From the NCBI GenBank assembly GCA_016788065.1, contig JAEUTI010000014.1:1-64000 (forward strand): DNA of 64,000 nt. Reading direction: 5' to 3'. Both the position numbers and the translations under genes were made by a program. Of the stretch, positions 23,187-55,385 are shown one piece after another (the stretch's first letter is position 1; every line of letters starts with the position of its first letter). The DNA comes from Bacteroidia bacterium. GTDB lineage: Bacteria; Bacteroidota; Bacteroidia; AKYH767-A; OLB10. Below the pieces are notes generated by a model that saw only the letters and a list, made by a program, of their open reading frames with translations, was not told the DNA's origin and searched no databases.

Positions 23187-23429
23187 TTGATTACACATCC
23201 GTTTTCTGAAACTTATTTTCATTTCGCTGCATGAAAAGGTCTTTTGCCTTACACTATTTGTAATGAAAAAATCAAACCTTACATCCCTTTTATAGGTCTT
23301 GAAACCTTTCAAACCGCAATTTCAGTGACTTTCAGAAAAAGAACGTGATCAATTTTGATACAAATTCTCAAAAATCTTTCAAATTATAATTCCTTCTCAT
23401 CTTGCTTCATTTACCCCTGAATACCGCCC

Positions 23430-23437
23430 TAATTTTG
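23430..23437 (+). promoter_or_regulatory. Candidate -7 element for the 266-aa secreted protein
   Basis: TAATTTTG fits TAnnTTTG; a CTTC lies 21 bases upstream as a weak -33. The site falls inside the upstream-extended reading frame and so favours the ATG at 23495 as the start. Confidence 0.4.
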
Positions 23438-23494
23438 ATGCATCAGAAAACAGTAAGCAACTATTCAGATCAATTAATTTTAAAAAGCAACACG

Positions 23495-24295
23495 ATGAAA
23501 AGAAATTCTACAAACAGTAACGCATCTTTCAGAAACATGCTTTCAGCAGGTGCAAAATCAATTAAACTAATGATGGTACTGGCACTTGCCGGAACAGGAA
23601 TTGCTAATGCTCAGTTTGGAGCAGTACCCGGTGAACATGATCCAATGGTTAAAGGATTAAATGACCCGATTCTCAGAAATCCTGGTGGAAATAATATGCC
23701 AATCAGAAATATTACTATCACTCCAATTTGTCCTGGAATTCAGAATTTAAATGTACCAGACATGAGCTTTGATGCAGTGGTGATGGAATGGTCAAATGCA
23801 TTCAATTATGATAGTCTCGTGTTCCGATTTGCATTGTCAGGAACAAATAACTACAGAGAAATTCGTATTCCTGGTAATCCAAATCCCGGAAGATACTTCC
23901 TGCAAGGCTTAACTGCACAAACTTCATATGATTTCTCAATTGCATCCGTATGCGGACCGGGTAATCAATCGGCTTGGAGTAACTCTGTAACGGTTACAAC
24001 ACTTCACGAACCTGCACCACGCATTCAAAATAATCAACGTAATTATAATCAAATACGTCTTAATCCGAATCCTGCCTCCGGATCAACTGCAATGTCCTTC
24101 TACTCCCCTATCGACGGTGTGTATCAGGTAGTAATTGTTTCCTCAACAGGCAAAGAAGTTATGAAGAAACAATTCAATTGCAGCATGGGTCAAAACATAC
24201 AGCAAATTGATCTCTCGAACTTCGCTCCAGGTCTATACTTTGTAAGACTGGGCAACGGATCGGAAACGTCCATCGAGAAGCTTATGGTAAATTAA
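23495..24295 (+). CDS. Secreted Fn3-like protein with T9SS sorting domain
   Basis: This 266-aa protein lies between the two giant genes. I start it at ATG 23495: the residues after it (MKRNSTNSN..., then KLMMVLALAGTGIANAQ) form a proper signal peptide. One fibronectin III-like module follows (about 85-185; MEWSNAFNYDSLVFRF, GNPNPGRYFLQGLTAQTSYDF, VCGPGNQSAW), then a type A T9SS sorting domain (LNPNPASGS..., FAPGLYFVRL, last about 80 residues). The Fn3 module closely resembles the third Fn3 module of the 2127-aa protein, including the GNPNPG loop. It may be an accessory or binding partner of the giants; function unknown. Confidence 0.82.
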   Translation: MKRNSTNSNASFRNMLSAGAKSIKLMMVLALAGTGIANAQFGAVPGEHDPMVKGLNDPILRNPGGNNMPIRNITITPICPGIQNLNVPDMSFDAVVMEWSNAFNYDSLVFRFALSGTNNYREIRIPGNPNPGRYFLQGLTAQTSYDFSIASVCGPGNQSAWSNSVTVTTLHEPAPRIQNNQRNYNQIRLNPNPASGSTAMSFYSPIDGVYQVVIVSSTGKEVMKKQFNCSMGQNIQQIDLSNFAPGLYFVRLGNGSETSIEKLMVN

Positions 24296-24342: not shown

Positions 24343-24386
24343 AGTTTTAGTAAATAGGGACGGAATAGTTCTTATTAATCAATATA

Positions 24387-24425
24387 AAAGCCCGGAAGTG
24401 CAAAAATTGCATCTCCGGGCTTTTT
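24387..24425 (+). terminator. Second intrinsic terminator
   Basis: AAAGCCCGGA (24387-24396) pairs with TCCGGGCTTT (24414-24423), followed by T to 24425. It is a strong GC-rich stem, a back-up to the terminator 45 bases upstream. Confidence 0.75.
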
Positions 24426-24590
24426 CATTACATAGCCTATATCATTCATTGATTTCTTCAAACCCACTATTCATGCGGGTTTGAAGAAAATGCCCATAAT
24501 TATCAATAGACTTTTACAGAAATTTTCCCGACAATCTTACAATAGTCAACTCAGGATTTGAAACGGTCAACGCCCGCTTGGCGCGCGGCT

Positions 24591-24730: not shown

Positions 24731-27700
24731 ATGAAAAGCAACTTTACAAAAGTATTCGACAAAAGCAATCCTGCTCCAAGTGTCCCCACACAATTTGGTA
24801 TGCTTGTATTGTTATTACTGTTGATTGCCATGTTTAGCTCCAAAGCGCAAACCATAAGCCCGTTACGCTACTGGACCTTTAATGGTGCGAATGCAGGGAC
24901 AGACTCCATGGGAGTTTCTAATCTGAATTTTACTACCTACAACTCTCAGTACACCGTAGGTACAAATGGTCAGGTTGGAAAATACATCTCTCTGGATGCG
25001 CAATCCAACCTGATTGATGGCGGACCACTGCCATTATCAAATGCCGTTTCGGTTGAATTCTTATTCAAACCAGGCTACATGTTCAACACTACCAACATGA
25101 TTAAGCGTGGTGACGGTGCCTTCGCAATCAGAATGGAATATCCAAAAATTTCATTCTATACCACTGTTAAAACAAGTAGCGGAAGTATGATCGAAGATGA
25201 ATTCATCATCAACCTTGATGGAATCGGTAGAAAAACTTTTGGATACTATGTAGATGGCAACTGGCATCACATGGCATTTGTATACAATGCAACAACCGGT
25301 GTTAAACAGGTTTATGTTGACGGACAACTTCCAACAGGTTTCAGCAAAACAGTTGCTAATACAGGAACTATCAACTCAACCGGAAACACAAACTTCTACC
25401 TTAACCACACAGTTAACTACGTAAAATATTTTGGTTCCATTGATGAACTGGCAGTTTATAACACCGCAATTCCTGCAAACTTTGTTTACAAACATTATTT
25501 AGGAACACAAAGCGGACAACCATACAGCTTCACGAACAATTACAACAACCCACTTCCAACAGCTGCTCCTATTACAGGACCAGTTGATCCTATGGATTTC
25601 GCTCCTGGTCACCCTTCAGTGACTATTTCTGCTATTGAGCAACTCAACAGCTATCCTGTTCCAAGATATAAACCAGGTAATACTTTACTTAAGAATTTCA
25701 ACTGGATGGATCCTAAATATATGGGTGGACTTTTTCAACCCGGTGTTACAACTCAAAATGCAGTTGATAACAGCGTGCTTATCCAAACTGAATTAGCTAA
25801 AAATTACAACTACTACTTCAATGTAGAACTTGGAAATGATTTGTTCGATATCGCATGGGCAAATGCAGCTAATGCAAACCCTGATTTTAAACTGGCATTA
25901 ACCATCTTTAGAGCTCAGTTAAATGGTAACAGCCCTGAACTTACCAATCAGAATAAACCAGCTAATCACTATCTGCAAAATTCAAGTGGTCAGTTCATTG
26001 ATATCAACGGTAACGTAACAACTTCGAAAATCTGGAGACCAACTGCACCTACTTCATCTTATAACAATGATGGACAAAATATCTACAATGAATTGAATAA
26101 CCTTTATACCCGCTTAACCCGGAATATTGACATCGTAAATGAAAATGGTGAAGTATTTCCTCATCCTGAAGAAGTGGCATTAAACAAAGATCCAGATGTA
26201 GTGGCAGCGAAAAATGCTTCAGGTATGGATTGGCCAACTTTCCTTGCAAGTAAATTCAAGGAGAATGAAGTTAATTCCTACAGAAATATTTTCATGGCAC
26301 ACCCTCGTATGGCAAATGCCAAATTCACTGAATACTCAACTGATGGGTTTCCATTATACCGATTTAAATACAGCCAGGCACGTTTGGTAAACAGCCAGAT
26401 TAATGGACAATACTATTCTACACCTGACTTCTATCCTCGTTGGGCAAATAACTGGAGAAACTGGGTATCTGCATGGCATGGATGGCAATGGATCGTTGAA
26501 TCAAGAGTAAATGAACTTGCTGTTGGCGATCGTCTTTATTCACCTTTCGTAGCTGCAGGCTGGGATGCTAATGAAGAAGTTAATATTCGTCCGGGCCAAT
26601 GGTTGGGATTACTAAAAGCACTTGGTATGACAGGAGCAGAATTCTTCTATTCAGGATTTTTCTCCCTTTCTTCTCCATGGCCTGATTCAAGAAACTGGAT
26701 CTGGCAAGCTGCAATGCCACCTTATGCACAGGCAATTTCAAGTCGCTATGAAGATTTTTTAAGAAATGGTGAATTGATGAATGGTGATGTTGCAAATTCC
26801 TATGTAACTCCAACAGCACCGGGATACTCATTCTGGTGTGGCGATCTGAGCAAATTGGTTGTTATCAGAAAACATAATGCTGGAAACAAATATGCAATCA
26901 CAGGTTCTGTTCAGCCAAATTCAAATATGGTTGGAAACAGTCCGGATGAAGGCGTTGCTAAAATCACCCTCGATGGTCAGGTAATTTCTTTCAAAGTTAG
27001 AAAGCAAGGTAGCACTTATATTTATGACAAAACAAATGCCGCTGCGCCAGTATTCTATCAGTTAGATGGATGGCATGAAAAATCTCATCCATCACATTGG
27101 ACTAAAGATTTTAACTTCGAAGCGGAATTATTTGATAACACTAATTCTCAGGTTTCTATTAAAACCAGTGTTCCTGCAGGAGCAGCTGCCGGTGACTTCA
27201 CAAATTTCACCAGTTATGTTTCATGGCCGGATAATGCTACAAGTCCTGCACCGGTTGAATATAACTTCCGCCCTCGCAGTGCATCCAATGCCACTCTTTA
27301 CTTATGGGTTCGAGCACGCAGCAGAGGTGGTGTTACCAGCAGCATGAATGTGCAAATCGACAACATGGCAGCCCGCACCATCGGATGTATCAATGATACG
27401 GCATGGACCTGGTACCGCTATGATGCATGTACTCAACAAGCAATAAACTATAATAACATTAATGTTGCTGATCACAAAATAATTATCACTCCGGGTAATG
27501 CTAAACTTGAAATCGATCAGGTGTTACTGACTACCAGCAGCAGTCTGATACTGAACAGTGCTCCTCCATCATGCGGATCAGCAACTGCTACTGTAACTGC
27601 AAACGGAAGCACAAGCTTTTGCACCGGTGGAAGTGTTACTTTGACTGCAAGCGCAGGAACATCTTATTTCTGGTCACCAGGCGGACAAACAACACAATCA

Positions 27701-30700
27701 ATTACTGTTTCTAACTCCGGTTCTTTCTATGTAACTGTTGGTTCAGGTTCTTCATGCTCTGCAATTTCAAACCCTGTTACCGTATCTGTTTCAAATGCTC
27801 CTACTGCAACTATCACAACTTCCGGATCAACCACATTATGTCAGGGTGCTAATGTTACTCTGAATGCACCAGCCGGCGCTGCTTCGTATTTATGGACTCC
27901 CGGTGGTCAGACTACCCAATCGATTACTACCGGTACCGCAGGACAATATAGTGTTCGTGTAACTAATGCAGGAGGTTGCTCTGCAACTTCATCACCGGTT
28001 ACAGTTTCTGTAGGTACTACTCCATCGGCTGTAGTAACTGCAGGCGGGCCTACTTCGTTCTGTCAGGGAGGATCTGTTTCATTAAGCACTTCAGGTGGTT
28101 CATCTTACCTTTGGTTCCCTGGCGGACAAACAACTGCTTCTATTAATGTAACTGCTGCAGGTAACTATTCTGTTCGTGTAACAGGAACAGGTGGATGTAC
28201 TGCTATGTCACAAACAATTCCGGTAACAGTTAATTCAATTCCTACTGCAACAATTTCTGCGGGCGGACCAACCTCATTCTGTGCAGGAGGAAGTGTAACT
28301 TTGAGTGCAAGCTCAGGTGCTTCCTACTTGTGGACTCCGGGTGGACAAACAACACAATCGATTACAGTTAGTAATTCTGGTTCTTATACAGTTCGCGTTA
28401 CAAATGCATCAGGATGTTCTGCAACTTCTGCAGCTACAACAGTAAATGCAAATGCTACTCCATCAGCGGCAATAACTGCAAGCGGACCAACTTCATTCTG
28501 CGCAGGAGGTAATGTTACTCTAACTGCAACCAGTGGATCATCTTACTTATGGACTCCCGGCGGACAAACAACACAATCGATTTCTGTAAGTTCTGCCGGC
28601 TCATACTCCGTTAGAGTAACCAATGGCAGCGGTTGTTCTGCAACTTCTGCTGCAACTAATGTTAGTGTACAAGCCGCACCAAATGCACAGATCGCTAACA
28701 GTGGCCCACTTACCTTCTGTCAGGGAGGTAGTGTAAACCTTACTGCATCTGCGGGAGCATCATATTTGTGGAGTCCGGGTGGACAAACTACGCAAACAAT
28801 TAATGTTACCAATTCAGGTGCATATACTGTTAGAGTAACCAACAGTTCCGGTTGTTCAACAATCTCATCGGCTACCAATGTGAATGTAAACAGTTCGCCG
28901 GTAGCATCAATCGCTGCCAATGGTCCACTTGCCTTCTGCTCCGGTGGAAGTGTAACACTTACTGCAAGTGCTGGTTCATCATATTTATGGACTCCTGGCG
29001 GACAAACTTCTCAGTCGATTACTGTTTCAAATGCAGGTAGCTATTCAGTAAGAGTAACCAATGCATCCGGTTGCTCTGCTACTTCAGCAGCATCGAATGT
29101 TAGTATTACCAGCAATCCGGTAGCAACCATTACCGCTAATGGAAACACAACTCTTTGTCAGGGTGGTAATGTTGACCTTACTGCAAGCAACGGTTCATCA
29201 TGGTTGTGGAGTAATGGTGAAACTACTCAAACTATATCAGTATCCAATGCTGGAAGTTATGCAGTTACTGTTTCTGCAGGTGCAGGTTGCAGTGCTACTT
29301 CAGCACCTCAGGTAATTAGTATGTCACCAGCTGTTTCTGCGGTAATTACTCCAAACGGACCAACAACCTTTACTCAAGGACAGAATGTTGTTCTGAACGC
29401 TTCAGGTGGAACTTCTTATGTTTGGGCACCTGATGGTGAAACAACTCCATCAATAACTGTGAGCTCAAGTGGAATTTATTCTGTAACCGCATACAATGCA
29501 AATGGATGCTCTAAAACATCAGACCCAATTGTAGTTAGTGTTATTCCTGTTGCAGGCCCTCCAGCAACCATTACCTTAAGTGGCCCTGCAAAATTATGTC
29601 CGGGTCAGAATGTGGTTCTTACTGCTAATGCCGGAGCATCTTACTTATGGAGTCCGGGTGGTCAAACTACCAGACAAATTACTGTAAATACTGCAGGCAC
29701 TTATTATGTAACAGTAGTTGATAACAATGGTGTTTCATCAACCAGTGCAGATGTGATTGTATCAGTAAATCCTGCTCCTGCGGCTCCTGCTGTAATCAGC
29801 AGCTTCATTCCTGGTTCAGGCTATCAGTTAAAAGCATATGAACCAACTGCACATAACTACATCTGGTCGAATGGAGCTACCACTCAAACCATCAATGTAA
29901 ATGCAATTGGAAACTATACTGTTAAAGCAATTAATGGTTTAGGTTGTGAATCTCCAATTCAGTCAATGGCTGTAACTGCAACAAATTCTCAACCATGTGC
30001 AAAAGCCAATATGCTTTCACACTATGCAATTTCTAACAACAATGCAACTGTATCCTGGAATCCTGCAATCACTGCTGATTCATTCAGAGTTGCGGTACAA
30101 CAGATTTCAACTTCAATTGTAATGAACTTTACTGTTCCCGGAAATCAAAGTAAACTTGACTTGCAGGATCTGTTACCTGGCACTTCTTACAAATGGTATG
30201 TATACACAATTTGCGGATCAACCCAATTGCAGAGTACCAGTAAAGTGTTCACTACTTTAAATGCACCACTTCCATGCGGGTCAACTCCACAATATCTCAA
30301 AACAGATGTTGTTAATGCAACCTTCGCAAAAATATCCTGGTATGATACTCAATCAGATCGTTTTGTAATTCGCTACAGGGCAGTTGGAACTAGTACCTAC
30401 ATCTATCGTCGCTCCTACAATACATTAACTGAGGGAATGATCCAAGGATTAATTCCGTCAACTACCTACGAATGGAGTGTTCGTTCTATGTGCGATGCAA
30501 ATGTCAGCCTCTATTCCGAACCAATGTATTTCACCACTTTAAGCGCATGCCCTTCAGTAGGCGGTGTAACTGTAGCTGATATCGGATTTAACAGTGCACA
30601 ACTAAACTGGAACTCATCCATTAGTGTCGACACCTTAATGATTCGCATAGCAATTACCGGAACTACCGATTACAAAGTAATTAAACTTGCCGGTAATCCA

Positions 30701-31114
30701 AATCCGGGGAACTACACTGTAACCGGATTAATCCCAGAAACAACTTACGATGCTTGGGTAGCTACCAAATGCGGTTCCGGAAGTACTTCAGCATGGGGAA
30801 CTCCTGCAACCTTCACTACTTTATCTGAACCGGTTGTTAGAACTTCATCTGATCCTGGTATATTGAATGTGAATGCGTATCCAAACCCAACCAAATTGTT
30901 TATCAACTATGCCTTCACATCAAAAGAAGAAAGTGAATATACCGTGAAAGTATGTGATATCTCAGGACGGGAATTACTCTCTGAAGTACGCGTAGCAAAT
31001 GAAGGATTACATGGCGAACAAGTTTCATTAGGCGGATTTGCAAGCGGACTGTATATGCTAGTTATTCAACAAGGACCAATGGTTGGAAGATTCAAATTCA
31101 ATATTAGCGAGTGA
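24731..31114 (+). CDS. Giant T9SS-secreted LamG/Ig-repeat surface protein (2127 aa)
   Basis: Paralogue of the 1605-aa protein with the same order of domains. There is a signal peptide (LVLLLLLIAMFSSKAQ, cleavage near 40), then a LamG-like domain (about 45-255; VEFLFKPGY, GNWHHMAFVYN, KQVYVDGQ). An unidentified central domain (about 285-760) has ENGEV at 471-475, SAWHGWQWIVESR, AAGWDANEE and TGAEFFYS with Glu637. A CBM-like sandwich (about 800-945) precedes eleven Ig-like repeats (950-1753), three Fn3 modules (about 1754-2037) and a type A T9SS sorting domain (AYPNPTKLF..., last about 80 residues). The two conserved Glu positions are 166 residues apart in both paralogues. Enzymatic function is inferred only; adhesin is the alternative. 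Confidence 0.85.
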   Translation: MKSNFTKVFDKSNPAPSVPTQFGMLVLLLLLIAMFSSKAQTISPLRYWTFNGANAGTDSMGVSNLNFTTYNSQYTVGTNGQVGKYISLDAQSNLIDGGPLPLSNAVSVEFLFKPGYMFNTTNMIKRGDGAFAIRMEYPKISFYTTVKTSSGSMIEDEFIINLDGIGRKTFGYYVDGNWHHMAFVYNATTGVKQVYVDGQLPTGFSKTVANTGTINSTGNTNFYLNHTVNYVKYFGSIDELAVYNTAIPANFVYKHYLGTQSGQPYSFTNNYNNPLPTAAPITGPVDPMDFAPGHPSVTISAIEQLNSYPVPRYKPGNTLLKNFNWMDPKYMGGLFQPGVTTQNAVDNSVLIQTELAKNYNYYFNVELGNDLFDIAWANAANANPDFKLALTIFRAQLNGNSPELTNQNKPANHYLQNSSGQFIDINGNVTTSKIWRPTAPTSSYNNDGQNIYNELNNLYTRLTRNIDIVNENGEVFPHPEEVALNKDPDVVAAKNASGMDWPTFLASKFKENEVNSYRNIFMAHPRMANAKFTEYSTDGFPLYRFKYSQARLVNSQINGQYYSTPDFYPRWANNWRNWVSAWHGWQWIVESRVNELAVGDRLYSPFVAAGWDANEEVNIRPGQWLGLLKALGMTGAEFFYSGFFSLSSPWPDSRNWIWQAAMPPYAQAISSRYEDFLRNGELMNGDVANSYVTPTAPGYSFWCGDLSKLVVIRKHNAGNKYAITGSVQPNSNMVGNSPDEGVAKITLDGQVISFKVRKQGSTYIYDKTNAAAPVFYQLDGWHEKSHPSHWTKDFNFEAELFDNTNSQVSIKTSVPAGAAAGDFTNFTSYVSWPDNATSPAPVEYNFRPRSASNATLYLWVRARSRGGVTSSMNVQIDNMAARTIGCINDTAWTWYRYDACTQQAINYNNINVADHKIIITPGNAKLEIDQVLLTTSSSLILNSAPPSCGSATATVTANGSTSFCTGGSVTLTASAGTSYFWSPGGQTTQSITVSNSGSFYVTVGSGSSCSAISNPVTVSVSNAPTATITTSGSTTLCQGANVTLNAPAGAASYLWTPGGQTTQSITTGTAGQYSVRVTNAGGCSATSSPVTVSVGTTPSAVVTAGGPTSFCQGGSVSLSTSGGSSYLWFPGGQTTASINVTAAGNYSVRVTGTGGCTAMSQTIPVTVNSIPTATISAGGPTSFCAGGSVTLSASSGASYLWTPGGQTTQSITVSNSGSYTVRVTNASGCSATSAATTVNANATPSAAITASGPTSFCAGGNVTLTATSGSSYLWTPGGQTTQSISVSSAGSYSVRVTNGSGCSATSAATNVSVQAAPNAQIANSGPLTFCQGGSVNLTASAGASYLWSPGGQTTQTINVTNSGAYTVRVTNSSGCSTISSATNVNVNSSPVASIAANGPLAFCSGGSVTLTASAGSSYLWTPGGQTSQSITVSNAGSYSVRVTNASGCSATSAASNVSITSNPVATITANGNTTLCQGGNVDLTASNGSSWLWSNGETTQTISVSNAGSYAVTVSAGAGCSATSAPQVISMSPAVSAVITPNGPTTFTQGQNVVLNASGGTSYVWAPDGETTPSITVSSSGIYSVTAYNANGCSKTSDPIVVSVIPVAGPPATITLSGPAKLCPGQNVVLTANAGASYLWSPGGQTTRQITVNTAGTYYVTVVDNNGVSSTSADVIVSVNPAPAAPAVISSFIPGSGYQLKAYEPTAHNYIWSNGATTQTINVNAIGNYTVKAINGLGCESPIQSMAVTATNSQPCAKANMLSHYAISNNNATVSWNPAITADSFRVAVQQISTSIVMNFTVPGNQSKLDLQDLLPGTSYKWYVYTICGSTQLQSTSKVFTTLNAPLPCGSTPQYLKTDVVNATFAKISWYDTQSDRFVIRYRAVGTSTYIYRRSYNTLTEGMIQGLIPSTTYEWSVRSMCDANVSLYSEPMYFTTLSACPSVGGVTVADIGFNSAQLNWNSSISVDTLMIRIAITGTTDYKVIKLAGNPNPGNYTVTGLIPETTYDAWVATKCGSGSTSAWGTPATFTTLSEPVVRTSSDPGILNVNAYPNPTKLFINYAFTSKEESEYTVKVCDISGRELLSEVRVANEGLHGEQVSLGGFASGLYMLVIQQGPMVGRFKFNISE
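27583..29992 (+). repeat. Tandem Ig-like repeat array, 11 units
   Basis: Eleven in-frame units of about 73 aa (219 bases) follow the same pattern as the array at 21209, but with PGGQTTQ in place of PGNQTTQ as the usual loop. Units 4-7 are the most alike at DNA level. Unit 9 has lost the first Cys (TFTQGQ), unit 10 lacks the second, and unit 11 is divergent. Confidence 0.85.
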
Positions 31115-31340: not shown

Positions 31341-31377
31341 AAAAAAAGACTGCAGAAAATTCTGCAGTCTTTTTTTA
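31341..31377. terminator. Bidirectional terminator between convergent genes
   Basis: A-tract, AGACTGCAGAA, a short A/T turn, TTCTGCAGTCT and T-tract form a near-perfect symmetric hairpin. It can serve both the 2127-aa protein gene (+) and the muramidase gene (-), whose stop is at 31375. Confidence 0.85.
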
Positions 31378-32592
31378 TTCTTCATATAGCAAATATTTTT
31401 TTCGCTTTGCCAGATAGCTTTTTAATCCCGGTTGCCATGATTTACGAATTTCTTCAACACTCATATTAGCCTGGATTTGTTTCCTCAACATATCAGTTCC
31501 AGCAAGCTTGTCGAAAAATGGGATAAAAAATGCGGCGGAATCAGAATAAGCCTTATACATCTGAACAATCCACTCAATTTGCAATTGCCCTGATTTTAAC
31601 ACCTCTTCCTTTCTTGAATTTAATTTTATGCCTTTGCAAAGTTGATTCTCATAAGGTGGATCTTTAATCACACCGGCAATTTCAACCGGCTTAAATTCAA
31701 AGTCGCCGTTCTTATAACCTGGAAATCCCATAACCTGAAATGGAAAATCAGTACCCCTTCCCACCGAAACCTTAGCCCCTTCAAAAAAACACAACGATGG
31801 ATACAGATAAATGGCATCCATATTTGGAAGGTTAGGCGATGGTCTTACCGGTAAATTATATAGTGATTTGTGAGTGTAACCAACCATAGGAACAACCAGC
31901 AGCGTACATTTTTCGGCATCAGAAATCCACTTTTCTCCTTTTGCCATTTTCGCATATTCACCAACTGTTAGTCCATGTACAACCGGAATCGGCGCAATTC
32001 CAACAAAGGAACGAAAAGCTGTATCGAGCACGGGACCATCAACATAAAATCCATTAGGATTGGGCCGATCGAGAACGATAACAGGAATATTAAATGCCGC
32101 ACACGACTCCATCACATAATGCAAAGTAGAGATGTAAGTATAAAAACGGGCTCCCACATCCTGAATATCAAAAATAATAACATCTATACCGTCAAGATCT
32201 TCCTTAGTGGGCTTTTTATGAGAACCGTATAATGAAACCAACGCAATACCAGTTTTGGCGTCGATTCCTGAATTAACGTGATCACCGGGACCAGCCTCAC
32301 CACGAAAACCATGCTCCGGAGCAAAAACTCTTGAAACAGTAATGCCTGAGTCAATTAACAGGTCAACTAAATGCCGGCTGCCAACTAAAGAAGTTTGATT
32401 GGCTACCACTCCCACCTTCTTACCCTTCAAAAGCCGTAAATAGGCGCCGGTTTGATCGGCACCGGTTAAAAGCTTCTCATTTGAAACAGAACCGACACCA
32501 TTTTCAGTGATTCCACTACTAACCGGCACACCGGCTGAGCAAGCTACAAGCACCAATAAAAAAACTAAGTTCCTGATTTTAGGGTAGATCAT
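31375..32592 (-). CDS. NamZ-like exo-beta-N-acetylmuramidase (DUF1343), lipoprotein
   Basis: This DUF1343 protein of about 405 aa belongs to the YbbC/NamZ family, whose characterised members release MurNAc from the ends of peptidoglycan fragments. Family motifs are visible: KVGVVANQTSLV, FAPEHGFRGEAGPGDHV, FDIQDVGARFYTY, VLDRPNPNG, VVHGLTVGE, and RPSPNLPNMDAIYLYPSLCFFEG. I start it at ATG 32592, because MIYPKIRNLVFLLVLVAC reads as a lipoprotein signal peptide with the lipobox LVAC; the frame is open 15 codons further upstream without adding signal. Likely anchored in the outer or inner membrane, acting in cell-wall recycling. Confidence 0.87.
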   Translation of the reverse strand: MIYPKIRNLVFLLVLVACSAGVPVSSGITENGVGSVSNEKLLTGADQTGAYLRLLKGKKVGVVANQTSLVGSRHLVDLLIDSGITVSRVFAPEHGFRGEAGPGDHVNSGIDAKTGIALVSLYGSHKKPTKEDLDGIDVIIFDIQDVGARFYTYISTLHYVMESCAAFNIPVIVLDRPNPNGFYVDGPVLDTAFRSFVGIAPIPVVHGLTVGEYAKMAKGEKWISDAEKCTLLVVPMVGYTHKSLYNLPVRPSPNLPNMDAIYLYPSLCFFEGAKVSVGRGTDFPFQVMGFPGYKNGDFEFKPVEIAGVIKDPPYENQLCKGIKLNSRKEEVLKSGQLQIEWIVQMYKAYSDSAAFFIPFFDKLAGTDMLRKQIQANMSVEEIRKSWQPGLKSYLAKRKKYLLYEE

Positions 32593-32657
32593 AATAAATG
32601 GCTTTACAGTTGCTGCGAAATTGGTAAATTTATGCACTTAAATCAACCCTTTGTTAA

Positions 32658-33943: not shown

Positions 33944-35308
33944 ATGTACTGCAAGAACATACTGGAAACCATTGGAAATACGCCACTTGTGCGATTAAAC
34001 AAAGTTGCTGAAGGCGTTAAAGCTACCGTTTTGGCTAAAGTGGAGACTTTCAACCCCGGAAATTCAATTAAAGACCGCATGGCTCTCAAAATGGTTGAAG
34101 ATGCTGAAAAAGCCGGTCTTCTTAAGCCGGGAGGAACCATTATTGAAGGAACTTCAGGAAATACCGGAATGGGGCTGGCTATTGCTGCTATCGTGAAAGG
34201 CTATAAGTGCATTTTCGCTACAACCGACAAGCAAAGCAAGGAAAAGGTTGATGCCCTTCGTGCCTTTGGTGCGGAAGTGGTGGTTTGTCCAACCAATGTT
34301 GAACCGGAAGATCCAAGATCGTATTATTCTGTTGCAGCCCGTCTGAACCGGGAAATTCCAAACTCGTTTTATCCAAATCAATACGATAATCCTTCTAATG
34401 CCATTGCTCACTATGAAACAACTGGACCAGAAATCTGGGCACAGACTGAAGGTAAAGTTGATCACCTGGTGGTAGGTGTTGGCACCGGTGGAACCATCTG
34501 TGGTACAGCTAAATTTTTGAAAGAAAAAAATCCAAATCTGAAAGTTTGGGGAATCGATACTTATGGTTCTGTGTTTAAGAAATATAAGGAAACCGGAATT
34601 TTCGATAAAAATGAAATTTATCCCTATGTTACAGAAGGTATTGGTGAAGATTTCCTGCCAAAAAATGTTGACTTTAATCTGATAGATGCTTTTGAAAAAG
34701 TTACCGATAAGGATGCTGCTCTGATGACTAGAGAAATTGTTCGTAAGGAAGGTATCTGGGTGGGCAATTCAGCGGGTTCGGCTATGGCCGGATTACTTCA
34801 GCTGAAGGATAAATTCAAAGAAGGAGAAGTTGTTGTGGTAATTTTCCATGATCATGGCACCCGTTATCTGGGTAAAATTTTCAACGACGATTGGATGCGT
34901 GAAAAAGGTTATACCAATCGGAAAGGTATGACTGCAAATGACCTGGTTAATACAAATAAAAATGTTGAATTGATTACTGTGAAAAGTACTGATACCATCA
35001 GTGATGCTCTTAAGCTCATCACCGGACATGGCATCTCTCAAATTCCGGTAACAACTGATAACCGCATCGTTGGTACGGTAAATGAAAATTTAATATTCAG
35101 TAAAATAATTGCTAATCCGGATATTGCCAAAGAACCGGTGAGCACCATTATGCAGGAAGCACTTCCATTCGTGGATGCTTCTACTCCACTTGATGTCCTC
35201 TCTGAAATGGTCAGCAAATCGGATGCAGCTGTGCTTGTAAAGGATTTTAAACTGGATAAAAATTATATCATTACCCGTTTCGATGTTGTGAAAGCTCTTG
35301 CCAACTGA
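33944..35308 (+). CDS. Cystathionine beta-synthase (PLP enzyme with CBS pair)
   Basis: This 454-aa fold-type II PLP enzyme condenses serine (or O-acetylserine) with homocysteine or sulfide. The catalytic domain (about 1-320) shows IGNTPLVRL, the PLP lysine in NPGNSIKDRMA, the phosphate-binding EGTSGNTGMGLA, VGVGTGGTICGTAKF, and EGIWVGNSAGSA. The C-terminal 115 residues form a pair of CBS domains (VELITVKSTDTISDAL, GHGISQIPVT, then VSTIMQEALPFV). No heme-binding N-terminal domain is present. Five bases separate it from the receptor-like gene, so they are probably co-transcribed. Cysteine synthase with CBS domains is the alternative reading. Confidence 0.9.
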   Translation: MYCKNILETIGNTPLVRLNKVAEGVKATVLAKVETFNPGNSIKDRMALKMVEDAEKAGLLKPGGTIIEGTSGNTGMGLAIAAIVKGYKCIFATTDKQSKEKVDALRAFGAEVVVCPTNVEPEDPRSYYSVAARLNREIPNSFYPNQYDNPSNAIAHYETTGPEIWAQTEGKVDHLVVGVGTGGTICGTAKFLKEKNPNLKVWGIDTYGSVFKKYKETGIFDKNEIYPYVTEGIGEDFLPKNVDFNLIDAFEKVTDKDAALMTREIVRKEGIWVGNSAGSAMAGLLQLKDKFKEGEVVVVIFHDHGTRYLGKIFNDDWMREKGYTNRKGMTANDLVNTNKNVELITVKSTDTISDALKLITGHGISQIPVTTDNRIVGTVNENLIFSKIIANPDIAKEPVSTIMQEALPFVDASTPLDVLSEMVSKSDAAVLVKDFKLDKNYIITRFDVVKALAN

Positions 35309-35313
35309 AACAA

Positions 35314-36096
35314 ATGATTCATATCGATCAAACAATGCGTGAGGTCAGGTTACACAAACCTGTCTCACGCATTGTTTGTCTGGTACCATCCATTACTGAA
35401 TTGCTAAGTGATCTAGGTCTCGATGATCGCATTGCAGGCATAACGAAATTCTGCATTCATCCCGAACATCTTTTCAGAGAAAAAACTAAAGTTGGCGGTA
35501 CCAAGAATGTGAATCATGAAAAAGTAAAAGCATTACAGCCCGATCTGATCATCGCCAATAAAGAAGAAAACACTAAGAAGGATATTGAACTCCTCGAAAA
35601 AGTTTTCCCGGTTTGGATAAGCGACATTTCAAATTATGAAGAAGCTTTATCTATGATTCATGAAATAGGTCAACTCACAGACACTTCTTCCAAAGCAGCA
35701 AAACTTATCGAAAATATCAGAACCACCTTTCAAGGAATACAACAATTTAATAACACTTCCGTACTTTATCTTATCTGGAAGAATCCTTACATGGCTGCCG
35801 GAAAAAATACATTCATCGATAATATGCTATCGCTGTGCAATCTTAAAAACTGTATTGATGCCGAACGTTACCCGGAAGTGGATGAGAGATTGATAAAAGA
35901 ACTAAATCCTGAGTTAGTTTTCCTTTCATCAGAACCTTTTCCTTTTAAAGAAAAGCATATTCATGAACTAAAACAACTTTTACCGGAAAGTAATGTTATC
36001 TTGGTCGATGGGGAATATTTCTCCTGGTATGGATCCAAAATGCTTACCGCGCCTCAATATTTTAATTCTTTACAAAATACTGTTATCCCAAACTGA
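35314..36096 (+). CDS. Helical-backbone metal-receptor (BtuF-like) protein without signal peptide
   Basis: This 260-aa protein of the cobalamin/iron substrate-binding superfamily has RIVCLVPSITELLSDLGLDDRIAGIT, KVGGTKNVNHEKVKALQPDLIIANKEEN and DERLIKELNPELVFLSSEP, the typical two-lobed fold with a helical backbone. It has no signal peptide and no transporter partner nearby, as I recall for a Bacteroidota subgroup, so the location may be cytoplasmic. Its first codons (residues 6-22) contain a very strong hairpin (separate entry). The stop overlaps the ATG of the patatin gene by one base (TGATG). Ligand unknown. Confidence 0.8.
   Translation: MIHIDQTMREVRLHKPVSRIVCLVPSITELLSDLGLDDRIAGITKFCIHPEHLFREKTKVGGTKNVNHEKVKALQPDLIIANKEENTKKDIELLEKVFPVWISDISNYEEALSMIHEIGQLTDTSSKAAKLIENIRTTFQGIQQFNNTSVLYLIWKNPYMAAGKNTFIDNMLSLCNLKNCIDAERYPEVDERLIKELNPELVFLSSEPFPFKEKHIHELKQLLPESNVILVDGEYFSWYGSKMLTAPQYFNSLQNTVIPN
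35329..35378 (+). repeat. Long inverted repeat inside the 5' coding region
   Basis: CAAACAATGCGTGAG (35329-35343) pairs perfectly with CTCACGCATTGTTTG (35364-35378). After a 2x1 internal loop, CAGGTT (35346-35351) pairs with AACCTG (35357-35362) around a five-base loop (ACACA). In mRNA this is a stem of 21 base pairs in 50 bases beginning 15 bases after the ATG. No T-run follows, so it is not an ordinary terminator. Confidence 0.9.
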
Positions 36097-38408
36097 TGCT
36101 TAAAGTAAATCCCTCATATCGTTTTGGTGCAGGATTTTCCATTTGGCTGATGGTTTTAATTCTCATTGGCTACACTGCTTCAGGTCAGTCTGTAGGACTT
36201 GTTTTGAGTGGTGGTGGAGTACGGGGTATGGCTCACATTGGCGTCATGAAAGCTTTGGAAGAAAATGGTATCCCGATCGATTATGTTGCAGGAACGTCTG
36301 CAGGAGCAACTGTTGGATCACTCTATGCTATTGGTTTGTCACCTGTTGAAATTGAAAAGCTGGTATTATCACAAGAGTTTGTAGAATGGGCCACAGGTGA
36401 AATCAATGAAGACCTCGACTATTACTACAATCGAAATGAACCCGGAGCATCATGGGTTTCTCTCAAATTTTCACTCGACTCAGTCATTCGCACACACTTA
36501 CCAACGAGCGTGGTTAATTCGGCACGCACCGATTTTGCACTTATGGAAGGTATGGCCGCAGCAATTGCCAAAGCAAAATATAATTTCGACAGTTTATATG
36601 TTCCTTTTCGATGTGTAGCTGCTGATATTATCTCCAAAAAGCCAATCGTTTTTGAAAGTGGCGACCTTCCACTGGCAGTACGTGCTTCTATGGCCTACCC
36701 TTTTTACTTTACACCGGTTTCATACAATAACATGATTCTATTCGATGGCGGCATCTACAATAACTTCCCTGTTGATGTGATGTTGAAAGAATTTAATCCT
36801 GATGTGATCATTGGCGTTAATGCAGGCTCCTACCCTGACATTCCATATGAAGAGAATGTTTGGTCGATGTTTAAAACGATGGTTGTACAGGCAACTAATT
36901 ATTCTGTACCCAGGGAAAACGACGTATTAATCAATCCTATGGTTGATGATGTTGGTTTGTTTGATTTTAATGATGTGAAAGCTGCTATCGACTCCGGCTA
37001 TGCGGAAACGATCCGAAATATGGACGCGATTAAATCACGGATTGGCTATCGCAGAAGTGCCGAACAATTGAAAGAAAAACGTACATCTTTCAGAGGCGAT
37101 CTAGGTCAGATTACTATAGATAAAATACATGCCACTGGAATCACGCTGAATCAAGAGCAATATGTTCGAAATATTCTCAATCGAAATAATGATTGCCTTG
37201 ATCTAAATCAAATAAAACCTTCCTACTTCAAATTACTAACCGACAAGAATATTAAATCGGTTTTCCCCAGGCTTACTTACAACGATTCAACAGGTTACTA
37301 TGACATGGACTTGCTAATCAAAAAGGAAAAAGATTTACGAGTCGATTTCGGTGGGAATATTTCATCAAGCCCAATCAATGAAGCATACATGGGATTGCAA
37401 TATAATTTGTGGGGAAAAAACTCTTTAACAGCAAGTGGAAATATCTATTTCGGGAAACTATACAACTCGGCATCTGTCAGGTTACGACTCGATATCCCAG
37501 GAAGATTTACTTATTACATTGAACCAATTGCAACCATCAACCGATTCGACTACTTTAAAAGCAGTTCTGCTTTTCTGGAAGATGTTAAACCGGCCTATCT
37601 GATTCAAACAGACCGATTCTATGGAGCTAATTTCGGCATCCCGGCTCGGAATAAAGGTAAGGTATATCTATCTGCAGGTTCTTTCAGTCTCATAAACCGC
37701 TACTATCAGACCCGTGATTTTTCAAGCGAAGACTTATCAGACAAAACAACCTATACCGGCTGGACAGGCTCCATTCATTTTGAGCGAAGCACTATCGATA
37801 AAAAAATGTACGCTCGAAATGGAACATCTTTCAACATCAGTGGAAGAATGGTTTCCGGTACAGAAAAAACTTACCCGGGAACAACCGGAATTTTTAATGA
37901 TACCATTCGCTCAACCCACGACTGGCTGCAATTAAGAATGATTTATGACAATTATTTCAGAAGTATCGGGATTTTTACATTAGGTTTTTATACCGATATG
38001 TACTTATCCAATCAATCGTTCTTCTCCAATTATACCGCGTCCATTTTAACCACTCAGGGATTTCAACCTATCAGTCAAAGCAAAACTATATTCCTTGATA
38101 ATTACAGAGCTCACAATTACATTGGAATGGGTCTGAAATCTGTAGTTAACATCCTCTCAAATGTAGAACTACGCACAGAAGGATATTTGTATCAACCGTT
38201 TCAGGAAATAATTTCAACCAAAGGTTACAAAGCCAAATACAACGAAGCTTTTGAATCGAGATATTTCATTGCTGCTCTTTCAGCTGTATTTCACAGTCCG
38301 GTTGGTCCAGCTAGTTTGAGTGTAAACTACTATGAAAAAAGGGATCAGCCTTTCTCAGTACTATTTCATTTTGGATATATTATTTTCAACAAAAGAGCCC
38401 TCGATTAA
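36096..38408 (+). CDS. Patatin-like phospholipase with outer-membrane barrel
   Basis: This 770-aa protein combines a patatin phospholipase domain (about 30-320) with a POTRA-like segment (about 345-420) and a BamA/Omp85-type beta barrel (about 425-770), like the PlpD/RssA-type autotransporter lipases. Catalytic features are present: oxyanion GGGVRG (39-44), nucleophile Ser68 in GTSAG, and Asp217 in DGGIYNN. An N-terminal signal segment (FSIWLMVLILIGYTASGQ) precedes it. The C-terminal residues end in aromatic, strand-like patterns as expected for barrels. It shares one base with the upstream gene, so translation is coupled. It ends in a TTAA shared with the convergent gene's stop. Confidence 0.9.
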   Translation: MLKVNPSYRFGAGFSIWLMVLILIGYTASGQSVGLVLSGGGVRGMAHIGVMKALEENGIPIDYVAGTSAGATVGSLYAIGLSPVEIEKLVLSQEFVEWATGEINEDLDYYYNRNEPGASWVSLKFSLDSVIRTHLPTSVVNSARTDFALMEGMAAAIAKAKYNFDSLYVPFRCVAADIISKKPIVFESGDLPLAVRASMAYPFYFTPVSYNNMILFDGGIYNNFPVDVMLKEFNPDVIIGVNAGSYPDIPYEENVWSMFKTMVVQATNYSVPRENDVLINPMVDDVGLFDFNDVKAAIDSGYAETIRNMDAIKSRIGYRRSAEQLKEKRTSFRGDLGQITIDKIHATGITLNQEQYVRNILNRNNDCLDLNQIKPSYFKLLTDKNIKSVFPRLTYNDSTGYYDMDLLIKKEKDLRVDFGGNISSSPINEAYMGLQYNLWGKNSLTASGNIYFGKLYNSASVRLRLDIPGRFTYYIEPIATINRFDYFKSSSAFLEDVKPAYLIQTDRFYGANFGIPARNKGKVYLSAGSFSLINRYYQTRDFSSEDLSDKTTYTGWTGSIHFERSTIDKKMYARNGTSFNISGRMVSGTEKTYPGTTGIFNDTIRSTHDWLQLRMIYDNYFRSIGIFTLGFYTDMYLSNQSFFSNYTASILTTQGFQPISQSKTIFLDNYRAHNYIGMGLKSVVNILSNVELRTEGYLYQPFQEIISTKGYKAKYNEAFESRYFIAALSAVFHSPVGPASLSVNYYEKRDQPFSVLFHFGYIIFNKRALD

Positions 38409-52894: not shown

Positions 52895-52967
52895 CACGGG
52901 TGGAGAGACTCGAACTCCCAGCCAATGGTTTTGGAGACCACTACTCTACCAATTGAGCTACACCCGT
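52895..52967 (-). tRNA. trnW: tRNA-Trp (CCA)
   Basis: A 73-base cloverleaf on the minus strand: acceptor ACGGGTG/CACCCGT, D arm with AATTGGTAGAG, anticodon loop CTCCAAA giving CCA, T arm GGGAGTTCGAGTCTC. The 3' CCA is not encoded. It lies between tuf and secE. Confidence 0.96.
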
Positions 52968-53120
52968 AACTTTAATTTATCTCTTCCTCCACTATCTTGC
53001 CTCTTGTTTATTGAGCTAATGGAAGAAAGTCTTCACTTCATCATCTCTATGAAATCATGATTTTGCGGATTTCATATAAAGACGATTGTATCCCTTTTTA
53101 AGAATCCTGAATCAGGATTT

Positions 53121-53181
53121 AAAAAATAACACAATTCCGAAAGATTACAGCCGGACCCTTGTGAGGTACCCGGCTGCAATC
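53121..53181 (-). terminator. Terminator region of tuf
   Basis: On the minus strand, GATTGCAGCCGG (53181-53170) pairs with CCGGCTGTAATC (53154-53143), one G-T pair, starting 17 bases after the tuf stop; ATTTTTT follows about 15 bases later. A second palindrome (AATCCTGA/TCAGGATT, 53103-53119) lies beyond it. Confidence 0.6.
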
Positions 53182-53197
53182 TACCGGAATGAAAGTA

Positions 53198-54385
53198 TTA
53201 CTTAATGATTTCGATTACCTGTCCGGCACCTACTGTTCTACCACCCTCACGGATAGCGAAACGAAGTCCTTTGTCCATAGCAACAGGAACGATAAGCTTC
53301 ACAGTGATAGTAACGTTATCACCTGGCATTACCATCTCACGTCCTTCAGGAAGTTCGATTTCACCTGTTACGTCAGTTGTTCTTAAGTAGAACTGTGGAC
53401 GGTATTTATTGTGGAATGGAGTGTGACGTCCACCTTCTTCTTTTTTAAGTACATAGATCTCAGCTTTGAAATCTGTGTGAGGAGTGATTGATCCTGGTTT
53501 AGCTACAACCATACCACGACGGATATCGTTCTTCTCAATACCACGAAGCAATAAACCTACGTTATCACCAGCTTCACCTTTGTCAAGGATTTTACGGAAC
53601 ATTTCTACTCCGGTAACTGTTGATGTAAGTTTTTTCTCCTGCATTCCAAGGATATCAACTGTATCGTTTGAGTTGATAATTCCTCTTTCAATACGACCGG
53701 TTGCAACGGTACCACGACCAGTGATCGAGAACACATCTTCAACAGGCATAAGGAATGGCTTATCAATATCACGAGGAGGAATTGGAATGAAATTGTCAAC
53801 TGCATCCATCAATTCATTGATTTTTGGAACCCAGTTAGCATCGTTGTTCAATCCACCCAAAGCTGATCCACGAATGATTGGTGTATTGTCACCATCAAAT
53901 TGATAGAAGCTTAACAATTCACGGATTTCCATCTCAACAAGGTCAAGAAGTTCCGGATCGTCAACCATATCCACTTTATTCATGAAAACTACAATCTTTG
54001 GAACACCTACCTGACGTGCAAGAAGGATGTGCTCACGTGTTTGTGGCATAGGTCCGTCAGTTGCAGCAACTACCAGAATAGCACCGTCCATCTGTGCAGC
54101 ACCTGTAACCATGTTCTTTACATAGTCAGCGTGACCTGGACAGTCAACGTGTGCATAGTGACGATTTTTTGTCTGATACTCTACGTGAGCAGTATTAATG
54201 GTAATACCTCTTTCTTTCTCCTCAGGAGCGTTATCGATTGAAGAGAAATCACGTACTTCAGCAAGTCCCTGCGATGCAAGAACTGAAGTGATAGCAGCAG
54301 TGAGGGTAGTTTTACCGTGGTCAACGTGACCAATAGTCCCAATGTTTACGTGGGGTTTGGAACGATCAAATTTTTCTTTTGCCAT
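53198..54385 (-). CDS. tuf: Elongation factor Tu
   Basis: GTPase delivering aminoacyl-tRNA to the ribosome; 395 aa, full length. G motifs [31 protein letters not shown] and the SALGG-type G5 are intact, as are the domain 2/3 blocks ([47 protein letters not shown]). It sits inside a tRNA cluster (Thr, Tyr, Gly, Thr upstream; Trp downstream), the classic tRNA-tufB arrangement, and is probably co-transcribed with the upstream tRNAs. Confidence 0.98.
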
Positions 54386-54647
54386 TTTTTTATGGGTTAT
54401 TAAGACGTGGTTTTTATTAATTGATTTTTGTTTCCTGTACCTGCGATCCTGCTAATCCACGCCTGAACAACAGACTACACGGCTTCGACAGGAAATATTA
54501 CTTTACTATATATGTATGCACTTTTACATGCAGTTTTTCTTTTGTTGTCAGGCAGATACAGATTCAATCACTCTTCCGCCCTATGCAATTCTTAATAATC
54601 AACCCCATTCCTGAAGCCGATAAACCCAACCGGTGGTCGCCGGTTTG

Positions 54648-54720
54648 AGCCAATGACCAGGATCGAACTGGTGACCTCATCCTTACCATGGATGTGCTCT
54701 ACCGACTGAGCTACATTGGC
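54648..54720 (-). tRNA. trnT: tRNA-Thr (GGT)
   Basis: Cloverleaf of about 73 bases on the minus strand. Acceptor GCCAATG/CATTGGC, anticodon stem CATCC/GGATG, loop ATGGTAA giving GGT, T arm with CCAGTTCGATCCTGG. The nearest tRNA to tuf. Confidence 0.95.
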
Positions 54721-54900
54721 TTGTGAGCTGAAACTGTACCCGTTTAAGGTGACTGCCACACCAGCCCAGTGGTTTATTGTTGTATTATACCGGCGTTACG
54801 GTATTTTAGTTGTTATCTATTTATAAGTCAAAGACTTACAGACTTCAACTTTCCATTTCAGCAGCTCTGGCCAATGGTCAGGTACTACTTTGAATCCTGG

Positions 54901-54973
54901 AGCGGAAGACCGGGCTCGAACCGGCCACCCTCAGCTTGGAAGGCTGATGCTCTACCAAATGAGCTACTTCCGC
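54901..54973 (-). tRNA. trnG: tRNA-Gly (TCC)
   Basis: Cloverleaf of about 73 bases on the minus strand. Acceptor GCGGAAG/CTTCCGC, anticodon stem TCAGC/GCTGA, loop CTTCCAA giving TCC, T arm GCCGGTTCGAGCCCGGT. Confidence 0.96.
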
Positions 54974-55194
54974 TTATATTAAAGAACACCTGGAAGTCTG
55001 TTTTCCTACCACCCCGATAACTTTCGGGAGAGCTGTTTCCAATTGTTACTTTGTTTTAACTGACTGATAATCAAAATTTCCATCAGGAAACAACTATCAG
55101 CCTTATTTTTTATCCTTTAATAAGGATATTGAAATTTCTACCAGAATTGAATTTGACCACTTTTTTATGATCTCCGGTGAGATACTTTAAGTGG

Positions 55195-55277
55195 TGGGGA
55201 GAGAAGGATTCGAACCTTCGAAGTCGTAAGACAACAGATTTACAGTCTGTCCCATTTGGCCACTCTGGTATCTCCCC
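55195..55277 (-). tRNA. trnY: tRNA-Tyr (GTA)
   Basis: Class II tRNA of 83 bases on the minus strand with a long variable arm. Acceptor GGGGAGA/TCTCCCC, anticodon loop CTGTAAA giving GTA, T arm AAGGTTCGAATCCTT. Confidence 0.96.
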
Positions 55278-55311
55278 ATTCCGGTGTGGCTTTACCCACG
55301 AATTCCTTATG

Positions 55312-55385
55312 AGCCGATGGAGGGATTCGAACCCCCGACCCACTGATTACAAATCAGTAGCTCTGGCCAACTGAGCTACATCGGC
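55312..55385 (-). tRNA. trnT: tRNA-Thr (TGT)
   Basis: Cloverleaf of 74 bases on the minus strand. Acceptor GCCGATG/CATCGGC, anticodon stem ACTGA/TCAGT, loop TTTGTAA giving TGT, T arm GGGGGTTCGAATCCCTC. First gene of the tRNA-tuf transcript. Confidence 0.96.

Follow-up and report, generated by a model that had tools for sequence, protein, structure and literature searches.

A candidate hairpin RNA element inside the first codons of a TroA-like gene at the cystathionine beta-synthase junction of Bacteroidota

The window analysed here is a stretch of 64,000 nucleotides from a Bacteroidia bacterium (contig JAEUTI010000014.1, positions 1 to 64,000 of the forward strand). It carries a gene for cystathionine beta-synthase (CBS; Pfam matches PALP, 1.5e-79, and CBS, 2.9e-10), followed by an open reading frame for a TroA-like helical backbone metal receptor (Pfam Peripla_BP_2; NCBIfam NF038402 TroA_like, 2.2e-44), a family referred to as BtuF-like in the original prediction that drew attention to this locus, and then by a patatin-like reading frame (Table 1). 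The CBS, TroA-like and patatin-like genes (33944-38408) form a conserved gene order. Across Bacteroidota, CBS followed by the TroA-like gene is a common arrangement, the two being adjacent in 135 of 232 ortholog loci, and a patatin homologue lies 3' of the TroA-like gene in about 54 of the 173 ortholog loci with 700 nt or more of downstream sequence, many of them in the same order. The single base shared by the TroA-like and patatin-like frames at position 36096, also part of the original prediction, is indeed present. It looks special to the focal genus: in relatives the patatin match mostly begins 110-260 nt downstream of the TroA-like gene, a larger gap than in the window.

Table 1. Positions of genes and hairpin parts at the CBS-TroA-like junction, in window coordinates
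Feature	Positions	Strand	Remarks
Cystathionine beta-synthase (CBS), upstream cistron	33944-35308	+	PLP-dependent domain and CBS domain; TGA stop at 35306-35308
TroA-like helical backbone metal receptor (ORF containing the hairpin)	35314-36096	+	260 aa; 5 nt past the CBS stop
Match to covariance model R1	35320-35388	+	36.7 bits; sole match in the 4.26 Mb genome of the window at E up to 10
Lower stem, 5' arm	35329-35343	+	15 bp, perfect; codons 6-10
G of G.U pair, U bulge and upper-stem 5' arm	35344-35351	+	upper stem 6 bp
Loop	35352-35356	+	ACACA, 5 nt
Upper-stem 3' arm and U of G.U pair	35357-35363	+	
Lower stem, 3' arm	35364-35378	+	codons S18 R19 I20 V21 C22
Patatin-like ORF, downstream	36096-38408	+	context only; shares one base with the TroA-like stop

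A mis-annotated start codon of the host reading frame can be ruled out, as three orthologs (L026, L028 and L029) start at the same place. Inspection by eye revealed no obvious signal peptide or lipobox at the start of the TroA-like protein or its orthologs, which suggests a possible cytoplasmic role beside cystathionine beta-synthase for this periplasmic-binding-protein fold. In one ortholog (L118; G013:C13:16039-16806) an internal TGA interrupts a frame that is otherwise open; the gene may be broken, misassembled or recoded.

Closer inspection of the start of the TroA-like gene bears out the inverted repeat that had been described at 35329-35378. The two arms of the lower stem (35329-35343 and 35364-35378), each 15 nt long, are 100% complementary; the structure continues upwards with a G.U pair (35344/35363), a U bulge of one base (35345) and an upper stem of 6 bp (35346-35351/35357-35362), giving 22 pairs in total. 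The placement in codons 6-22, 15 bases past the ATG, likewise stands: the hairpin begins at +16 relative to the ATG at 35314 (codon 6), 20 nt past the CBS stop, and ends in codon 22. Near start codons, strong structure is as a rule avoided.

The structure is as unusual as had been suggested. Its local minimum free energy (MFE) is -42.2 kcal/mol, against a mean of -25.05 for dinucleotide shuffles, none of which (0/200) equals it. The region 21-70 nt past the CBS stop has an MFE of -36.6, against a mean of -11.7 for synonymous shuffles, in which codons are permuted and the protein sequence is unchanged (0 of 3000 equal; z -7.0). In Markov-sequence controls of the same size as the window the longest perfect hairpin is 11 bp. 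The window-scale and synonymous-shuffle controls rule out a chance origin, and as protein-preserving shuffles fold worse, amino-acid constraint is ruled out as the sole cause. The hairpin occurs once in the genome, so that a mobile or repeated element is ruled out as well.

By length of perfect hairpin, the focal structure ranks second in the 64 kb. The longest, at 31341-31376, is an intergenic perfect hairpin of 16 bp that ends in an A-run on one side and a T-run on the other; this symmetrical intrinsic terminator lies directly 3' of a 2127-aa reading frame (24731-31114) and at the end of a minus-strand reading frame (31375-32637). Two further strong hairpins (24386-24489) occupy the 435-nt gap between the reading frame at 23402-24295 and the start of the 2127-aa frame: the 11-bp AAAAGCCCGGA/TCCGGGCTTTT hairpin resembles a bidirectional terminator, and the 13-bp TTTCTTCAAACCC/GGGTTTGAAGAAA hairpin is without a T-run. 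Elsewhere in the window, five tRNA genes are clustered on the minus strand (52895-55385).

The only other member of the genus that was compared (G001/L002/L032, record KLAP29) shares the hairpin apart from a single substitution, which lies in the loop. Across 780 nt the two species show 49 differences, none of them in the stem, which is weakly unexpected (p ~0.06, an estimate), and compensatory changes are not available from a genus of two species. Beyond the genus, the outcome for the original prediction, which had proposed loss of the stem in relatives as a test, is divided: the stem was sought in order-level orthologs (about 45-55% protein identity) and is absent there, and the structure reappears elsewhere with different sequences. 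The focal protein departs from its family at three rare residues, M8, V17 and C22, all of which fall within the stem; position 22, a Cys in the focal protein, is Ser in 106 of 109 family sequences. On this basis the pairing seems to have come at the expense of family-typical amino acids.

The same observations could be read as the trace of a mutational by-product, whereby template switching (quasi-palindrome correction) left a functionless perfect inverted repeat in a linker that tolerates it. The arms are very long and perfect, with a single bulge, the hairpin is restricted to one genus within its order, and the rare M8, V17 and C22 sit where pairing is completed or flanked, all of which fit such an event. 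What counts against it comes from other lineages.

A scan of 109 orthologs revealed long stems, differing in sequence, at the same segment of the gene. Among 101 Crocinitomicaceae orthologs, the 20 codons before the LVPS motif have a mean z of -2.67 against synonymous shuffles, with 60% of sequences at z<-2 and 44% at z<-3; segments of the same length further into the gene average about 0. For the main register, represented by 40 distinct Crocinitomicaceae sequences, 94.8% of cells pair, compared with 26-45% in slid controls. Double compensatory changes, which had been proposed as a check on the hairpin, are found in these 40 sequences at 6 of 11 stem pairs (41 cells; 0/500 shuffles), so that the check is positive in this family and negative among near relatives of the focal genus. 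One pair of third codon positions is seen as A-U, C-G, U-A and G-C. In a 41-sequence set of the main register, 39 G.U cells stand against 1 A.C cell over positions 19-32 (13 against 1 in the inner stem), a count carrying a small bias because the score used in choosing sequences tolerates G.U slightly. Such an excess of G.U over A.C cells points to selection that would act at the level of the sense RNA rather than of duplex DNA. A palindrome acting at the DNA level, whether as a cruciform or as a dimer binding site, is disfavoured by the same asymmetry and by the shifting sequence and register.

Within Fluviicola, nine distinct sequences of one clade have a near-invariant common stem, and three more species have different stems in the same place. 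Among codons whose amino acid is invariant, the third position varies at 1 of 7 sites in the stem and at 98 of 113 outside it (p=9e-5). Hairpin carriers include cultured species, several Fluviicola among them. The focal stem and the main Crocinitomicaceae register both use the R-I-V codons as 3' arm; as these codons largely dictate the 5' arm, this would explain the similar ACAAT-CG core. Acquisition of the focal hairpin by gene transfer from Crocinitomicaceae was considered and set aside, since the gene tree (in which deep support is modest) places the focal protein outside that clade, and we favour an independent origin on this phylogenetic evidence.

The mutational by-product reading thus has to contend with the same junction being hit repeatedly in separate lineages with covariation, with the asymmetry of G.U over A.C, and with frozen synonymous sites. 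We consider a functionless by-product unlikely, and it is possible that the focal copy was mutational in origin and selected afterwards. In Crocinitomicaceae the hairpin is very probably a selected RNA element, and in the window it is probably one too; this claim is much firmer than any mechanism.

A covariance model (R1) was built from Crocinitomicaceae orthologs only, and it matches the window at the hairpin (Table 1). The same alignment without structure (R2) gives no match in the window. The R1 score derives in part from orthology, as other relatives in the order reach 10-30 bits. Among 60 Crocinitomicaceae genomes R1 finds matches in 23, never more than one per genome.

The original prediction had also raised a cobalamin-, metal- or temperature-responsive switch, for which the encoded protein family (TroA/BtuF-like), and nothing else, can be cited. 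An Rfam search at the window locus and 12 relative loci gave no match at or above the gathering score to any known family, cobalamin riboswitch included. The element is a simple hairpin of variable sequence, with register and loop equally free to vary; neither a conserved ligand-binding core nor an alternative fold was seen, and a switch of this kind is extremely improbable.

A leaky intrinsic terminator or attenuator between the CBS and TroA-like genes has somewhat more to commend it. The base of the focal stem is AU-rich (ACAAT/ATTGT), the upper stem is GC-rich, and a moderately T-rich stretch follows; moreover, several relatives (L006, L018, L029 and L120) have ordinary terminator-like hairpins in their gaps. 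However, the stem is without a U-tract, and a terminator scan of the plus strand found none at the hairpin, in keeping with the original view that it is not terminator-like. The T content after the stem is due to the conserved I-V-S codons, and in hairpin-bearing Crocinitomicaceae the post-stem Ser codon is more often TCG (31/63) than TCT (13/63), with TCT in 12/24 of hairpin-less sequences. As no U-tract has been selected after the stem, we regard termination as very unlikely.

Is the hairpin, then, simply a property of gene starts in these bacteria? Over codons 5-26 of neighbouring genes, 5.1% reach z<-2 and 0.9% z<-3 (n=334), and other tightly adjacent gene pairs reach z<-3 in 0 of 72 cases; these counts rule out a general trait of Bacteroidota gene starts or of tight gene pairs. 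Outside Crocinitomicaceae, z<-3 is found at 6 of 28 loci where the CBS stop overlaps the TroA-like start or lies at most 15 nt from it, against 2 of 153 others (p=2e-4), and when repeats within a genus are collapsed at 4 of 25 (p=0.004; z<-2 marginal, p=0.05), with the proviso that thresholds and groupings were picked during exploration and that the sequences are phylogenetically non-independent. The positive lineages here are the focal genus, Chitinophaga (with its own register, codons 14-26), L329 and L323/L297. In orthologs that are not adjacent to CBS, the hairpin is little above background. Hairpin occurrence is thus better predicted by an upstream CBS gene, a point absent from the original prediction.

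A complementary pattern is seen where the two genes are spaced apart. Outside Crocinitomicaceae, a significant hairpin is present in 44% (n=25) of CBS-TroA-like gaps of 25-200 nt and in 16% (n=133) of other gaps. For Crocinitomicaceae, whose hairpin mostly resides in the reading frame, the share of such CBS-TroA-like gaps is 11% (n=19); these percentages come from a sample of genomes that is not exhaustive, and the gap lengths depend on the choice of start codon. That hairpins lie in the reading frame at tight junctions and in the gap where there is one suggests an element tied to the boundary at the end of the CBS cistron. Two Fluviicola loci (L157 and L158) have a second strong hairpin in a CBS-TroA-like gap of 58-66 nt besides the one in the reading frame (z -4.2 and -4.0).

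Two observations run against assignment to the boundary. First, two members of the same family as the focal genus (L021 and L026) have tight CBS adjacency and are without the hairpin. Second, the codon position of the Crocinitomicaceae hairpin is constant despite CBS gaps of 26-67 nt, as at many Fluviicola loci, so that in this family the hairpin tracks the TroA-like start, not the CBS stop.

The latter observation favours a translational gate on the TroA-like gene, the reading put forward in the original prediction together with a possible effect on the patatin-like gene through the shared base. In such a gate a hairpin just beyond the initiating ribosome would lower or tune initiation or re-initiation at the TroA-like start, 0-5 nt from the CBS stop. 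The tight stop-start spacing of the cases outside Crocinitomicaceae fits control of re-initiation. In Flavobacterium johnsoniae, positions -20 to +20 are as a rule less paired (PMC6847099), and the hairpins, which begin between +16 and about +34, lie at the edge of this region. Yet a gate does not account well for three features of the distribution: the hairpin is not seen at other tightly adjacent gene pairs, lineages with a gap place it there, away from the TroA-like start, and orthologs without an adjacent CBS gene are little above background. A gate is conceivable, though we think it rather unlikely.

The mechanism we tentatively favour, with translational tuning of the TroA-like gene next, is a boundary hairpin for the CBS cistron. 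The hairpin would form in the sense transcript about 20 nt past the CBS stop, on the margin of the footprints of both the terminating and the initiating ribosome or outside them. As the genes almost touch, leaving no intergenic room, it would have to lie inside the first TroA-like codons. There it would block 3'-to-5' exonucleases, insulate terminating ribosomes, or both, and CBS would be made in excess over the TroA-like protein.

There is some precedent for this proposal. In the puf operon (Chen et al. 1988, cited in PMC9239205), intercistronic stem-loops reportedly stabilise upstream cistrons and give differential stability within one operon. Those stem-loops are similarly at a cistron boundary, but they lie between genes, whereas the hairpin described here overlaps coding sequence and compromises C22, M8 and V17. 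A closer parallel is the gal operon of E. coli, where the galE hairpin (E-hairpin) in galT stops exoribonucleases and yields stable galE mRNA (PMC11925234, PMC9239205). As at our locus, the galE hairpin sits in the following gene's coding sequence, a short way past the upstream stop. It is smaller and more distant, at 8 bp and about 130 nt past the stop; where spacing is tight, the loci studied here have stems of 11 to 22 bp that lie about 20-35 nt from the stop. The present hairpins also differ in that they recur across lineages with covariation and are known from sequence alone.

The proposed insulating function has its counterpart in the ribosome termination structure (RTS), which follows the stop codon, insulates against re-initiation and has a strength tied to expression of the next cistron (PMC7518266). 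The focal hairpin resembles an RTS in that a stable structure lies just 3' of a stop codon and clear of the terminating ribosome. However, the RTS was described as a feature averaged over whole genomes, and its definition covers gaps of 25 nt or more and neighbours on the opposite strand (PMC7518266), whereas the focal hairpin is specific to a gene pair and much stronger, and its successor gene is 5 nt away on the same strand. The fit is weakened further because the published RTS is depleted at gaps <25 nt, the opposite of what a 5-nt gap would require. We infer that the hairpin may act as an exonuclease block or insulator, and that a function in Crocinitomicaceae may extend to the focal genus.

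The lineages and registers that would count as separate origins are the genus of the window, several Crocinitomicaceae registers, Chitinophaga, L329 and L323/L297. A literature search for a reported link between the CBS-TroA-like pair and an RNA element found none. Whether these hairpins together constitute an undescribed, gene-pair-specific RNA element of the Bacteroidota CBS-TroA-like junction, embedded in the reading frame, of several origins and varied in sequence and register, is in our judgement evenly balanced.

The locus presents a long hairpin that is kept, and apparently re-invented, in a place where such structure is normally avoided, for one gene pair and at what seems a cost to the protein. 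It offers a clean natural test of the way in which adjacent genes come to be expressed unequally in operons of bacteria that lack Shine-Dalgarno sequences. If the proposal is true, selection at a cistron boundary can override conserved amino acids in an overlapping reading frame.
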